Assembly (NCBI GenBank): GCA_020832545.1
Contig: JAFIEK010000019.1
Span: forward strand, 1-64,000
Direction: 5' to 3'
Length of the DNA stretch: 64,000 nucleotides
Source of the DNA: Pararhodobacter sp.
Lineage (GTDB): Bacteria; Pseudomonadota; Alphaproteobacteria; Rhodobacterales; Rhodobacteraceae
Shown here piece by piece: positions 11,969 to 40,000 of this stretch. The notes beneath the pieces were generated by a model. It did not search any database. It saw only the letters and a list, made by a program, of their open reading frames with translations, and was not told where the DNA came from. The position numbers and the translations under genes were made by a program. Position 1 is the first letter of the stretch, and the number at the start of each line of letters is the position of its first letter.

Positions 11969-12134
11969 ACGCCAGTCAGCTCGCCAGACCTAAAATCTGA
12001 TCTGCCGCCAGCCGACGCATGTTTGCCGTCTGCGGCGGGTTGTCGGGCAGCGCGGACGGCGTTGGCGTCACCGGGCAAAAACCTCGTGCAGGCCATGCAT
12101 TTGCTTGCCAGCCTGTCGCACATCGCGTATCACG

Positions 12135-12320
12135 CAAATGCTTCGGTGCGGATATCTTACGTCCGCTGATAGGGAATTCGGTGAGGCTTCGCAGCCAAGT
12201 CCGGAACTGCCCCCGCAACTGTAAGCGGCGAGTGATGTCGGCGAATGCCACTGTGGTTCTGCCATGGGAAGGTCCGGCAAAGCGATGACCCGCGAGTCAG
12301 GAGACCTGCCGAAGTGTTCA
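12135..12320 (+). promoter_or_regulatory. Cobalamin (B12) riboswitch
   Basis: The conserved aptamer elements occur in order: AGGGAATTCGGTG, then CCGGAACTGCCCCCGCAACT (the B12 core), GCCACTG, GGGAAGG, GATGACCCGCGAG and CAGGAGACCTGCC. A GC-rich hairpin follows at about 12327-12352 and could be the expression platform before the receptor ribosome site. It should repress the corrinoid uptake operon when adenosylcobalamin is plentiful. The preceding 165 bases after 11968 show no supportable gene. Confidence 0.95.
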
Positions 12321-12376
12321 CCCTATCCCGGCGCGGGCGGCGTCGCGGGTAACGGTCAGTCCGTAGAGGTGACGCT

Positions 12377-35192: not shown

Positions 35193-36470
35193 ATGAACCG
35201 GTTCAAGGCTTTCCGGCTGATCGCCGTCGCGGTGCTGCTGACAGTTCTCGGAGGCTTAGCTGTGCTCAATCTGACGCCAGACCGGCGCGAGCTTGATCGC
35301 CCGGTGCCGCATGCCGCAGGAACTTCGGACGCCGAATTCCTTCGCACGATGGCCGGGCTCTATGGTTCTAATCTGTTGACCGGAACCCAGATTGAAACGC
35401 TGGTCAACGGAGACCGGATTTTCCCTGCCATGCTCGATGCGATTGCAGCGGCCGAGCAAAGCGTGAATTTTGAAACCTATGTCTACTGGTCCGGCGACAT
35501 TGCCGTGCGGTTCGCCGACGCTTTGAGCGAACGAGCCCTAGCCGGGGTCGAGGTGCGGGTACTGCTGGACTGGGTGGGATCCGCCCAGATGGACCCGGCG
35601 CTTATCGACCGGATGGAGGCGGCAGGTGTGCGGGTGGTGCGGTTTCGTCCAGTGCGCTGGTACACGCTGACACGTGTCAATAACCGCACCCATCGCAAGC
35701 TTCTGGTGGTTGACGGGCGCGTGGGTTTCACCGGCGGCGTGGGGGTGGGCGACGAATGGCTGGGCGATGCCCGGCACCCCGATGAATGGCGCGAGACGCA
35801 TTACCGCGTGACCGGCCCGGTGGTGGCCATGATGCAGGGCGCCTTTGCCGAGAACTGGGTAGAAGACACCGGCGAGGTACTTCAGGGTCCGCGCCATTTT
35901 CCTGCTTTGGAGCCCGTGGGCGATATGGTCGGGCAGCTTGTGACCTCGTCCACCGGCAGCCGAAACTCCATCCATCTGATGCTGATGACCGCAATCGCCT
36001 CTGCAGAAAGCCATCTTCGCATTACCAGCCCGTATTTCGTGCCGGATGACGTGGCCATCAATCAGTTGCTGGAAGCCCGCGCGCGCGGTGTCACGGTTGA
36101 TATCATCGTGCCCAGTGCTCATACTGATTTCGCCCTGGTGCGCCATGCCTCGCGCCATTTCTGGGGGCCATTGCTGGAGGCTGGGGTGGGCATCTACGAG
36201 TATCAGCCGACCTTCATTCATGCCAAACTGTTGATCGTGGATACGGGCTTTGTTTCTGTCGGCTCAACCAATTTCGACGAACGATCATTCCGGCTCAATG
36301 ACGAGGCCAATCTGAACGTGTTCAACGCCGAGTTCGCACGCGAACAGATCGAAATCTTCGAGCGTGACCTTGCGCAATCGGTGCGGATCACTGTTGATAG
36401 CTGGGAGCGACGCCCCTGGCGCAAACGGGCGGGCGACTGGTTCTGGAGTTGGTTTCGCCCGCAGCTCTGA
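35193..36470 (+). CDS. Cardiolipin synthase-like phospholipase D family protein
   Basis: The 425-residue protein has an N-terminal membrane helix (about residues 6-27) and two PLD catalytic motifs: HRKLLVVDGRVGFTGG and HAKLLIVDTGFVSVGSTNFDERS, both with intact HKD residues. This is the ClsA/ClsB-type arrangement that makes cardiolipin from phosphatidylglycerol in the inner membrane. It precedes a PLDc_N protein, so membrane lipid remodelling under stress is likely. No EcfG motif is seen immediately upstream. Confidence 0.88.
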   Translation: MNRFKAFRLIAVAVLLTVLGGLAVLNLTPDRRELDRPVPHAAGTSDAEFLRTMAGLYGSNLLTGTQIETLVNGDRIFPAMLDAIAAAEQSVNFETYVYWSGDIAVRFADALSERALAGVEVRVLLDWVGSAQMDPALIDRMEAAGVRVVRFRPVRWYTLTRVNNRTHRKLLVVDGRVGFTGGVGVGDEWLGDARHPDEWRETHYRVTGPVVAMMQGAFAENWVEDTGEVLQGPRHFPALEPVGDMVGQLVTSSTGSRNSIHLMLMTAIASAESHLRITSPYFVPDDVAINQLLEARARGVTVDIIVPSAHTDFALVRHASRHFWGPLLEAGVGIYEYQPTFIHAKLLIVDTGFVSVGSTNFDERSFRLNDEANLNVFNAEFAREQIEIFERDLAQSVRITVDSWERRPWRKRAGDWFWSWFRPQL

Positions 36471-36518
36471 TCGCATGTCGCGCGTTGCGCTGGCTTAACA
36501 ACACACAGGAGAGAACAT

Positions 36519-36704
36519 ATGAATGTCCAGTATTCAGGCTTCCTAGGTCTTATCCACCTTGCCCTTGTGGTCTGGGCGGCAGTGTCCATCATTGGATCGA
36601 ACGTCTCTAATGGGGCCAAGGTTCTATGGATCCTGCTGGTGCTGGTGTTCCCGGTGGTCGGGCTGATCATCTGGCTTGTCGCGGGTCCTCGCAGCAGGGC
36701 CTGA
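36519..36704 (+). CDS. PLDc_N domain two-helix membrane protein
   Basis: The 61-residue product has two helices with the pattern LIHLALVVWAAVSII and KVLWILLVLVFPVVGLIIWLVAGPR, matching the N-terminal domain of cardiolipin synthases as a free-standing protein. AGGAGAG precedes its ATG. Placed 48 bases after the synthase gene, it may be an accessory unit of that enzyme. Confidence 0.85.
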   Translation: MNVQYSGFLGLIHLALVVWAAVSIIGSNVSNGAKVLWILLVLVFPVVGLIIWLVAGPRSRA

Positions 36705-36733
36705 CCAGCCCCCAAATAAATTTCAGCACCCAG

Positions 36734-36758
36734 GGAACCATGTCCCGCGCCGCGCGTT
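36734..36758 (+). promoter_or_regulatory. EcfG-type promoter of a putative small RNA
   Basis: Exact GGAAC-N16-CGTT, followed only 38 bases later by an intrinsic terminator stem. No open frame of any size begins in between. Confidence 0.8.
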
Positions 36759-36764
36759 GGCAAG

Positions 36765-36829
36765 ATGATCCAATGATCCCTCCCTCCTTGACTGACTGAC
36801 CGCCGACAGTGTCGGCGGTCAATTTTTTT
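36765..36829 (+). ncRNA. Putative EcfG-dependent small RNA with anti-Shine-Dalgarno-like CCCTCCCTCCTT
   Basis: A predicted transcript of about 65 nt starts 6-9 bases after the -10. It contains a repeated ATGATCC and the unpaired C-rich stretch CCCTCCCTCCTT (36778-36789). It ends in an 11-bp perfect terminator stem (36797-36807 with 36811-36821) plus seven T (36823-36829). C-rich single-stranded segments of this sort are the targeting loops of Caulobacter GsrN and Rhodobacter CcsR RNAs. The size, autonomous promoter and terminator argue for a real small RNA; no experiment is known to me. Confidence 0.7.
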
Positions 36830-36852
36830 GCCCGTTCAATCATTCCATGACA

Positions 36853-37332
36853 TCAGCTTGGCGTGCAGTGGCGGTCCATCATGGCAAGCTGGGTATCGCG
36901 CATAGCCTCCAGTGAGTTCCTCTGTTCGGCGTCTTTGGTCGCGACGATGGCTTGCTCATAGCCTTCAAGAACATGTTTCTCACCCTGAACCAACGCATCC
37001 ATGATGTTCACATCGATCGTGTCAAACCACGAGCGCATCTCGACCAACCCGCGATTCATAGCGCCGAAAACCGACCCGTCGCGCGAAGGGTCATGCCCAT
37101 CGCGTGCCAGCATCTCACCGATTGCGCGCGAGTGGCGTTGATGCATGGTGCGGAAGTCCTCGGCAATGGTACGAAATCCGGGCTCAGCCTTTTCGACAAC
37201 CTTGTCGAACCCCGAGATCGTATCAACGAGCCGGGTGTGCAATTCGGCCAGAGCCGCAGTCCCAGAGTCGGTTCCGTGCTCATTCTCGGCAGGACTGCTT
37301 GCAGTTTTGGGGTGAAGGGGGAAGGGTTCCAT
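36853..37332 (-). CDS. DUF2383 / PA2169 family four-helix protein
   Basis: The 159-residue all-helical protein (LAELHTRLVDTISGFDKVVEKAEPGF, RAIGEMLARDGHDPSRDGSVFG) fits the PA2169/DUF2383 ferritin-like group, frequently stress-associated. GGAG lies shortly before the ATG. I see no exact EcfG motif directly upstream; it could be reached by read-through from the DUF1328 gene past the hairpin. Confidence 0.8.
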   Translation of the reverse strand: MEPFPLHPKTASSPAENEHGTDSGTAALAELHTRLVDTISGFDKVVEKAEPGFRTIAEDFRTMHQRHSRAIGEMLARDGHDPSRDGSVFGAMNRGLVEMRSWFDTIDVNIMDALVQGEKHVLEGYEQAIVATKDAEQRNSLEAMRDTQLAMMDRHCTPS

Positions 37333-37371
37333 GGTTCAGTCTCCGGTTGGTAAAGGGGGCTGAAAAACAGA

Positions 37372-37401
37372 AACGGTCGTCGCCGAAGGGCGACGACCGT
37401 T
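37372..37401 (-). terminator. Terminator of the DUF1328 gene
   Basis: A 13-bp perfect stem with a GAAG loop lies just after the DUF1328 stop. On the minus strand it is followed by TTTCTGTTTTT. Confidence 0.8.
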
Positions 37402-37427
37402 CCGGCAGATCAAGTTCAGAATTCAGC

Positions 37428-37601
37428 TCAGACGGGTGGCTGTCCACGTACTGCGCGCGCCACCATCGCCACGATGAACAACACCACGAAGATGAAAAAC
37501 AGCACTTGCGCGATTGACGAGGCAGCCCCGGCAATACCGCTGAAACCCAGCGCCGCAGCGATAAGGGCGACGACGAGGAAGGTGAGGGCCCAGCCCAACA
37601 T
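37428..37601 (-). CDS. DUF1328 small membrane protein (YtjA family)
   Basis: The 57-residue product has the family signature [42 protein letters not shown] in two helices and a short basic end. YtjA-type genes are classical general-stress genes in Alphaproteobacteria. An exact EcfG promoter lies 36 bases upstream. Confidence 0.93.
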
Positions 37602-38283: not shown

Positions 38284-39114
38284 TCAGGACACCAGTGTGT
38301 CGGTTGTCGCAAAGAACATCGCTTGCGACACAGCCGAGCGCACTTGTTCCACGGTGAAGGGTTTGGCGATCAGAAATGCCGGTTCAGGCTTCTCGCCGGT
38401 CAGCAACCGGTCAGGGAACGCGGTGATGAAAATCACCGGCACATCGCCCAGTTCCTTCAGCAGAATATTCACCGCATCAATGCCCGACGAGTTGTCGGCC
38501 AACTGAATATCCGCCAGAATAAGGTCCGGGCGCTCTTTCCTGCCCAGCGCCACTGCCTGGTCGCGGGTCCGCGCAATGCCGGTGACATGATGCCCCATAT
38601 CGGTGACGATATTGCGGATATCCATGGCAATCAGCGGTTCGTCCTCGATGACCATGACCTTGCCGCGGATGGCAGATTCCATCTCGCGCAGGGCGATGGT
38701 GATCAGTTCCTCGGCCTCTTCCTGAGTGACATCCATGATGCGGGCGATTTCGTCATGACGGAATTCCTCGACCGAGCGCAACAAAAGCGCCTCACGGGTA
38801 TTCGGTGTCAGCGCGGCCAGCATTGCCTGGGTCCGCTGTTCCAGCCCCGGGCCGTCACTTGCCTCGACCGGTGTGCCCGTCGAGCTCCAGACCAGATGGA
38901 ACGCACGAAAGAGCGCGACGCGCGGCGTATCATCGCCGGACAGGATGGAGCGATCTGCCAGAATGGCCTCAAGCGTGGCGGCAGCGTAGCGATCACCGGT
39001 GTCCTGATTGCCGGTAAGCGCGCGCGCGTAGCGGCGCAGGTAGGGAAGCTCTGCCGCGATCCGCAGGGCCATGTCCGGGGTTTGCTCGCGGGCGGAGTTT
39101 TGAGAGTCTGTCAT
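38284..39114 (-). CDS. phyR: General stress response anti-anti-sigma regulator PhyR
   Basis: The 276-residue protein has the diagnostic order for PhyR. A sigma-factor-like N-terminal domain comes first (residues about 1-145: LPYLRRYARALTG, LTPNTREALLLRSVEEFRHDEIARIM). A receiver domain follows with acidic pair Glu157-Asp158, phospho-acceptor Asp202 (LILADIQLAD), Thr231 and Lys251. Once phosphorylated, PhyR binds NepR through the sigma-like domain and frees EcfG. It is divergent from nepR-ecfG and has its own EcfG promoter, implying positive feedback. Confidence 0.97.
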   Translation of the reverse strand: MTDSQNSAREQTPDMALRIAAELPYLRRYARALTGNQDTGDRYAAATLEAILADRSILSGDDTPRVALFRAFHLVWSSTGTPVEASDGPGLEQRTQAMLAALTPNTREALLLRSVEEFRHDEIARIMDVTQEEAEELITIALREMESAIRGKVMVIEDEPLIAMDIRNIVTDMGHHVTGIARTRDQAVALGRKERPDLILADIQLADNSSGIDAVNILLKELGDVPVIFITAFPDRLLTGEKPEPAFLIAKPFTVEQVRSAVSQAMFFATTDTLVS

Positions 39115-39141
39115 TACCACTCACTTTTTTTTCAGTATGCC

Positions 39142-39166
39142 GGAACCAAACGCGGTGAGTGGCGTT
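39142..39166 (+). promoter_or_regulatory. EcfG-type promoter of nepR-ecfG
   Basis: Exact GGAAC-N16-CGTT on the plus strand, 83 bases before nepR. It overlaps the phyR promoter on the other strand: each -10 lies inside the other's spacer. Confidence 0.85.
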
Positions 39167-39173
39167 CGGTTCC
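39149..39173 (-). promoter_or_regulatory. EcfG-type promoter of phyR
   Basis: Exact GGAAC-N16-CGTT on the minus strand, 34 bases before phyR. It is interleaved with the nepR promoter in a 32-bp segment (39142-39173). Confidence 0.85.
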
Positions 39174-39248: not shown

Positions 39249-39431
39249 ATGTCCCAAATCGAGCATCCCAACCGTCGCCGCCCCGCACCCCGCGCGGTCT
39301 CAGAAGCGGTGGAGAAGCAGATCGACGAGAATCTGAAGAGGCTTTACCAGCAGTCGCTTGAAGCCGACCTGCCCGATACGCTCAAAGAGCTTGTTGCCAG
39401 GTTGCGCGACGAAGGGAAGCCTCAACGATGA
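39249..39431 (+). CDS. nepR: Anti-sigma factor NepR
   Basis: The 60-residue protein has the two NepR helices: EAVEKQIDENLKRLYQQSLE and LPDTLKELVARLRD. These clamp EcfG and switch to PhyR-P. It overlaps ecfG by four bases (ATGA), the usual arrangement. Confidence 0.95.
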   Translation: MSQIEHPNRRRPAPRAVSEAVEKQIDENLKRLYQQSLEADLPDTLKELVARLRDEGKPQR

Positions 39432-40000
39432 GTTCATCTGATGCCCAACCGTCCGATCCGCGCGAAGAAATAATCGAGCATTTGCCTGCATTGCGGGCCT
39501 TTGCCCTCAATCTGACCCGCAACAGTTCTGCGGCAGATGATCTGGTTCAGGACACCCTCCTGAAAGCCTGGACCAAGTTTGACCTCTATCGCCAAGGAAC
39601 CAACCTGCGTGCATGGCTCTTTACCATTTTACGCAACAGCTTTTACTCGGAGCGCCGGAAGGCCGCGCGCGAGGTAGCTGATGTCGATGGTATTCTCGCC
39701 GGTCGGCTGGCAACCAAGCCTGATCATGACGGGCGGCTTGCGCTGTCGGATCTGGCGAAGGCCTTTGCCAAACTGCCCGATGAGCAGCGCGAGGTTCTGG
39801 TTCTGGTGGGCGCGCTGGGGTTCTCCGTCGAAGAGGCGGCGGCAACCTGCGGCTGCGCCGTGGGCACGGTGAAAAGCCGCGCCAACCGGGGTCGCCGCGC
39901 GCTGGCGCAGATGCTTGGCCTGGAAGCTGGCGAAGGTATGGACCTGACCGACAGCGCAACGCGGGCCGTCATGTCAGCGCAACAAGCCGCCACAAGCTGA
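39428..40000 (+). CDS. ecfG: General stress ECF sigma factor EcfG
   Basis: The 190-residue sigma factor has region 2 (LRAFALNLTRNSSAADDLVQ, DTLLKAWTKFDLYR, LRAWLFTILRNSFYSE) and region 4 (LPDEQREVLVLVGALGFSVEEAA, GTVKSRANRGRRAL). It belongs to the ECF15/EcfG group by sequence and by the nepR and phyR neighbours. Its expected promoter, GGAAC-N16/17-CGTT, occurs eleven times in this window. Confidence 0.96.
   Translation: MSSSDAQPSDPREEIIEHLPALRAFALNLTRNSSAADDLVQDTLLKAWTKFDLYRQGTNLRAWLFTILRNSFYSERRKAAREVADVDGILAGRLATKPDHDGRLALSDLAKAFAKLPDEQREVLVLVGALGFSVEEAAATCGCAVGTVKSRANRGRRALAQMLGLEAGEGMDLTDSATRAVMSAQQAATS

Follow-up and report, generated by a model that had tools for sequence, protein, structure and literature searches.

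Does the short interval behind the PLDc_N gene of this Pararhodobacter sp. contig hold a small RNA (sRNA) gene driven by the stress sigma factor EcfG, or only the end of the PLDc_N message? In the window (the whole 64,000-nucleotide stretch of DNA analysed), the interval and its neighbours are laid out as follows.

36519..36704, plus strand: PLDc_N gene; the sRNA candidate starts 30 nt past its stop, in its likely 3' UTR
36734..36758, plus strand: EcfG-type promoter GGAAC-N16-CGTT of the candidate, a motif match (GGAAC at 36734-36738, N16, CGTT at 36755-36758)
36764..36829, plus strand: predicted sRNA of ~65 nt, its start set by promoter spacing and by the onset of conservation
36767..36778, plus strand: weak 4-bp hairpin GATC/GATC in the predicted fold, formed by the doubled ATGATC
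36773..36795, plus strand: core, containing CCCTCCCTCCTT and identical at 23/23 positions in the relative G004
36778-36789, plus strand: CCCTCCCTCCTT, proposed anti-Shine-Dalgarno seed within the core
36797..36829, plus strand: intrinsic terminator with an 11-bp stem (arms 36797-36807 and 36811-36821), a 3-nt loop and T7 (36823-36829)
36853..37332, minus strand: DUF2383 gene, convergent to the candidate
38284..39120, minus strand: phyR
39249..39431, plus strand: nepR, so named because it lies between phyR and ecfG rather than from a family search
39428..40000, plus strand: ecfG, with sigma-70 regions 2 and 4, called EcfG from its place beside phyR

The candidate lies 1.5 kb from phyR and 2.6 kb from ecfG; in G004, it lies ~5 kb from phyR. 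We place it in the likely PLDc_N 3' UTR because there is no other plus-strand terminator in 36450-37450, and the terminator at 36797..36829 probably also ends the PLDc_N mRNA. On the opposite strand, a 15-bp minus-strand terminator (37370-37403) separates DUF1328 from DUF2383, and transcription of the latter may therefore depend on read-through or on a promoter of its own. Elsewhere, the window carries a cobalamin riboswitch (12127-12327, 127.2 bits).

The anatomy proposed in the initial annotation, an EcfG promoter followed within 40 bases by an 11-bp stem with T7 and no open frame, was present throughout: the gap from promoter to stem is 38 nt (sequence GATGATCCAATGATCCCTCCCTCCTTGACTGAC), and no frame longer than 8 codons starts between them in the window (the longest in G004 has 12 codons). 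The doubling of ATGATCC that it described was found at 36765 and 36773, but the first repeat in G004 reads ATGATCA, so that the doublet common to both species is limited to ATGATC. Minimum-energy folds of both species place an open C-rich linker between the 4-bp hairpin and the terminator, with folding z-scores of -5.13 for the window RNA and -6.0 for the G004 RNA. Mean unpaired probability of CCCUCCCUCCUU was 0.85 in the window versus 0.68 in G004, where the ensemble has three inner bases of CCCUCCCUCCUU predicted mostly paired.

The promoter match does not stand alone. GGAAC-N15-18-CGTT sites number 12 in the window, versus a mean of 1.68 expected and a maximum of 8 in 100 shuffles; the window is an EcfG regulon island. 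No sigma-70-like promoter was found in 36450-37450. We compared 16 genomes of the genus over 19 stretches (the window, locus L005 of G004 and, from 14 further genomes, 17 stretches taken around ecfG or PLDc_N). Only in the window and G004 was such a promoter followed within 250 nt by a terminator, without an intervening frame of at least 40 codons. A pattern of EcfG promoter plus T6 within 30–60 nt gave one match in the window's own genome and one in the control, the window site falling outside the pattern at a distance of 64 nt. A 32-bp near-palindrome between phyR and nepR (39142-39173) consists of two overlapping EcfG promoters that face each other head to head; the same 32-bp arrangement recurs in 12 of the 20 stretches inspected (11 genomes of the genus).

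To judge conservation, we searched 18 genomes of the genus, including the window's own (12 of good completeness, 6 below 90% complete). The candidate was found in one relative, G004, at the same place, and was not found in the other 16 at the sensitivity of a DNA search. PLDc_N and DUF2383 flank it in G004 as in the window, with the convergent layout kept, and G004 is the only relative found with these two genes side by side. There the core is identical at 23/23 positions, in agreement with the earlier expectation that the C-rich segment would be kept where the flanks are. The promoter boxes are identical at 9/9 positions and the spacer at 9/16; identity falls to 0/5 at 36759-36763, and returns to 7/8 over the first eight RNA bases (36764-36771). 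Stem and loop agree at 20/25 positions with all pairs kept, versus 52/109 in all other non-coding columns examined and 141/185 in the PLDc_N coding sequence. Conserved boxes and a conserved RNA core amid drifting surroundings are the trace expected of an sRNA gene. The stem pair changes between the two sequences (one two-sided, one one-sided) were equalled in 243 of 500 shuffles and are too few for a test of covariation. PLDc_N is present in five further genomes of the genus, with no such RNA behind it in any; DUF2383 does not adjoin PLDc_N in the stretches searched from four of them, and in the fifth (G008, outside that adjacency search) another sequence directly follows PLDc_N.

Beyond the genus, a DNA search covering 295 genomes of the family, with the own genome among them, returned two other genomes only, each with a short partial match (38 and 29 bases). 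We also scanned 394 family genomes with a model, R1, built from the window and G004 sequences, using strict filters and scoring at most 10 candidates per genome. R1 scored its source sequences at 119.8 bits (window) and 120.6 bits (G004), versus at most 25.3 bits elsewhere in the genus; across the family it gave matches in the own genome and in 29 others (33 non-own places), and no EcfG-type promoter accompanied any of the 29 places viewed (260 bases examined each). Fifteen of these 29 were rejected as copies of one unrelated gene, small and very conserved, in which CTGCTCGATAGGTTTCTTGCCTGTATGAAACCTGCCTCAAT is followed by a terminator. They are L153:1501-1588 and 14 more of the loci L148-L176, spread over different genera of the family; L153 gave no Rfam match above cut-off (best Hrs13, 24.7 bits versus 52). 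A pattern joining the EcfG box to CCTCCTTGA was likewise discarded as chance, with the own genome and 6 others matched in 394 family genomes versus 7 reversed-control matches. The exact 17-mer core occurred in 35 stretches of a contig collection that may omit the window's own genome; the one with an EcfG promoter and T run, HLUCCA12, is very probably G004. No convincing copy beyond the window and G004 was found in the samples searched, and the candidate looks lineage-specific.

How does the predicted RNA relate to known families? GsrN of Caulobacter activates katG, and the loop of a 5' hairpin holds its C-rich tract. According to PMC5869019, BLAST finds homologs of GsrN in Caulobacteraceae only, and position near phyR-nepR-ecfG is one criterion by which GsrN-like RNAs of Rhizobiaceae were called. 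Compared by description, the window RNA has in common with GsrN and GsrN-like RNAs an EcfG/SigT-type promoter, a C-rich segment and a place near phyR-nepR-ecfG (PMC5869019); the C-rich tract lies in a predicted linker, however, not in a 5' hairpin loop. Promoter and proximity to the locus were the GsrN-like features found, and the hairpin-loop tract was absent from the predicted fold. CcsR1-4 of Rhodobacter sphaeroides are described as stress-linked, Hfq-dependent RNAs with an anti-Shine-Dalgarno motif (PMC7866481, PMC3927594), and CcsR-related RNAs as showing CCUCCUCCC in each of several hairpin loops (PMC3927594); the window RNA has a single linker, lacks this 9-mer and forms no such hairpin. 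The claim of a C-rich targeting loop like that of GsrN and CcsR thus stands for the composition and the single-stranded fold but not for the loop, the stretch being a linker between the 4-bp hairpin and the terminator. Likewise, the initial annotation was right that the locus sits beside PLDc_N, but its view that it is unlike known ones is tempered by the phyR-nepR-ecfG genes 1.5–2.6 kb off, which it left out of account and whose proximity is a GsrN-like criterion in PMC5869019.

The aR8 family (suhB/MmgR, RF00519; SisA-D of Caulobacter) has the same plan as the window RNA: a weak hairpin, a single-stranded C-rich core with CCUCCCU, and a terminator. The aR8 core UUUCCUCCCU and the window's AUCCCUCCCU agree in 8 of 10 letters, and the layout is present in the minimum-energy folds. 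RF00519 aligned over its full length, at 23.7 bits for the window and 27.6 bits for G004, below the gathering score of 41; the model is loose at E <= 1, with matches in 13 of 14 control genomes. In PMC12559287, SisA represses a target in E. coli with Caulobacter Hfq, an anti-Shine-Dalgarno 10-mer pairing upstream of the start codon. That paper reports no promoter motif common to SisA-D, whereas the window RNA has an EcfG promoter. By analogy, the predicted RNA is a combination of a GsrN-like promoter and place with an aR8 seed type.

SorX and SorY (RF02784, RF02651) also resemble the window RNA, with CCUCCCU-N4-GACU before the terminator. Twelve of 15 core positions match, at the only place in the window with at least 12 (P = 0.005, dinucleotide shuffle; P = 0.0007, base shuffle; comparison chosen after looking), so that common descent may be possible. 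The SorX/SorY Rfam models left the window RNA unmatched up to E 10 and gave G004 13.8 and 13.7 bits; neither RNA reached the gathering scores of 46.6 and 111 bits. With R2, a SorX/SorY-type model from 25 sequences of the genus, the window scored 18.1 bits (E 0.0071) and G004 17.5, while unrelated places in the same search scored 21.5, 18.4 and 18.1; better-scoring matches in L139 and L140 are antisense at a DUF1328 gene start and were set aside as unrelated. Genes apart from the candidate, elsewhere in the window genome, score as SorX-like (71.3 bits) and SorY-like (62.5 bits, cut-off 111). SorX/SorY-type sRNAs with CTCCCTGTTGGACT are widespread in the genus, with tandem pairs in several loci; we first took them as aR8, but Rfam names the two tested window-genome copies SorX and SorY. 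The loci are as follows.

L023, L043: SorX/SorY-type loci of the window genome
L024, L029, L038, L046, L056, L057: further SorX/SorY-type loci

The RNA would work like GsrN, aR8/SisA or SorX/SorY, but its sequence gave no assignment to one of these families. As to Hfq-class features, an hfq gene is present in the window genome and in G004, and the terminator has a T7 tail.

Possible targets were sought as AAGGAGGG before an ATG, of which there were 16 in the window genome (G000; reversed control 6) and 19 in G004 (control 2). The 19 include the complement of the sRNA itself and count one site twice; 30 of the 35 rows became loci. Three genes have the motif in both species: UspA, the divergent DUF6455 gene and a DUF1150 gene (Pfam assignments on the window-genome copies).

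L203, L201 (window genome) and L188, L186 (G004): divergent UspA and DUF6455 genes with AAGGAGGG ribosome sites, possible shared targets

In the window genome, the complement at UspA runs for 13 contiguous bases over the Shine-Dalgarno sequence (-34.1 kcal/mol), followed by GATCAT and the start. One of 478 background sites was better, the longest background match being 10; in G004 the complement is 8 bases and 14 of the 478 sites (of the window genome) were better. For DUF6455 and DUF1150, 50 and 128 background sites were better in the window genome, and 5 and 74 in G004. This background spans ~1/10 of the genome, includes doubtful frames and omits the starts of the three genes; because UspA came from a genome-wide pattern search, ~9 better sites would be expected genome-wide. 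Given the way the sites were selected, the UspA mRNA, though the leading candidate target in the window genome, is a hint only. One G004 frame (orf_79444, -35.9) was dropped since it reads only 8 codons.

What, then, is the locus? The rival we take most seriously, though we think it unlikely, makes it the tail of the PLDc_N mRNA and nothing more: the EcfG promoter beside the terminator would serve no further purpose, and the RNA would have no function in trans. The RNA begins 30 nt past the PLDc_N stop with the sole plus-strand terminator in 36450-37450, and relatives without the RNA suggest that it is dispensable to the neighbourhood, but a terminator alone leaves the 23/23 pre-stem sequence and the 9/9 boxes unexplained. 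Somewhat more improbable is that the stress sigma factor of this lineage drives a mimic of the ribosome's anti-Shine-Dalgarno end: GAUCCCUCCCUCCUU, which resembles the 16S rRNA tail, would at high abundance mask ribosome-binding sites broadly, and the stress response would brake strong-SD messages as a class instead of a few selected targets.

Very little probability attaches to the core being a tiny reading frame. An ATG at 36773 would give MIPPSLTD and a stop; G004 has MIPPSLTE, with an in-frame GTG there giving 12 codons. Frame and stop are kept in both species with one internal difference (D to E), yet a single difference cannot demonstrate selection on codons, no evident ribosome-binding site precedes the ATG, and we know of no partner for the 8-codon product. 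Equally far-fetched is action in cis on the convergent DUF2383 mRNA, whether as antisense or as partner of a read-through transcript with the seed complement. The convergent layout is kept in G004 and no minus-strand terminator lies behind DUF2383 in 36450-36853, but the RNA ends 24 nt before the DUF2383 gene end, where only a read-through mRNA would overlap it, and cis antisense would have no need of conserved sequence.

We consider the locus probably an Hfq-class, EcfG-driven, trans-acting sRNA of ~65 nt behind PLDc_N, pairing with Shine-Dalgarno regions via CCCUCCCUCCUU. We favour this because boxes and core are kept in full against 52/109 in other non-coding columns and 0/5 just before the start; because EcfG-type sites are enriched, the fold is stable in both species and the seed is largely unpaired in the window; because neither a sigma-70-like promoter nor another plus-strand terminator lies in 36450-37450 and Hfq is present in both genomes; and because known RNAs with this layout use a segment of this kind for repression (PMC12559287) or are driven by EcfG from a place close to that locus (PMC5869019). 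It is weakened by having two species only, by the lower unpaired probability in G004 and by the five genomes with PLDc_N but without the RNA. The predicted sRNA gene is well supported, the proposed mechanism drawing on anatomy and precedent, and the EcfG-controlled sRNA with an exposed anti-Shine-Dalgarno stretch proposed in the initial annotation is supported as the best reading. In the general stress pathway, PhyR releases EcfG under stress; EcfG would then transcribe the sRNA from 36734-36758, as the promoter match and established pathway knowledge suggest. With Hfq, CCCUCCCUCCUU would pair with purine-rich Shine-Dalgarno regions and lower translation, given its complementarity and the SisA precedent. 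Through the sRNA, the general stress response would gain a post-transcriptional arm, as with GsrN, which activates katG in Caulobacter.

EcfG-driven stress sRNAs are described in Caulobacter and predicted in some Rhizobiales (PMC5869019); we found no EcfG-controlled sRNA of Rhodobacteraceae in the open-licence literature, and PMC5830050 reports no major general-stress role for R. sphaeroides PhyR. If the reading is true, a lineage-specific EcfG sRNA with an aR8/Sor-type anti-Shine-Dalgarno sequence would point to repeated recruitment of such RNAs by the stress sigma factor; the candidate locus near phyR-ecfG supplies a concrete RNA for testing.
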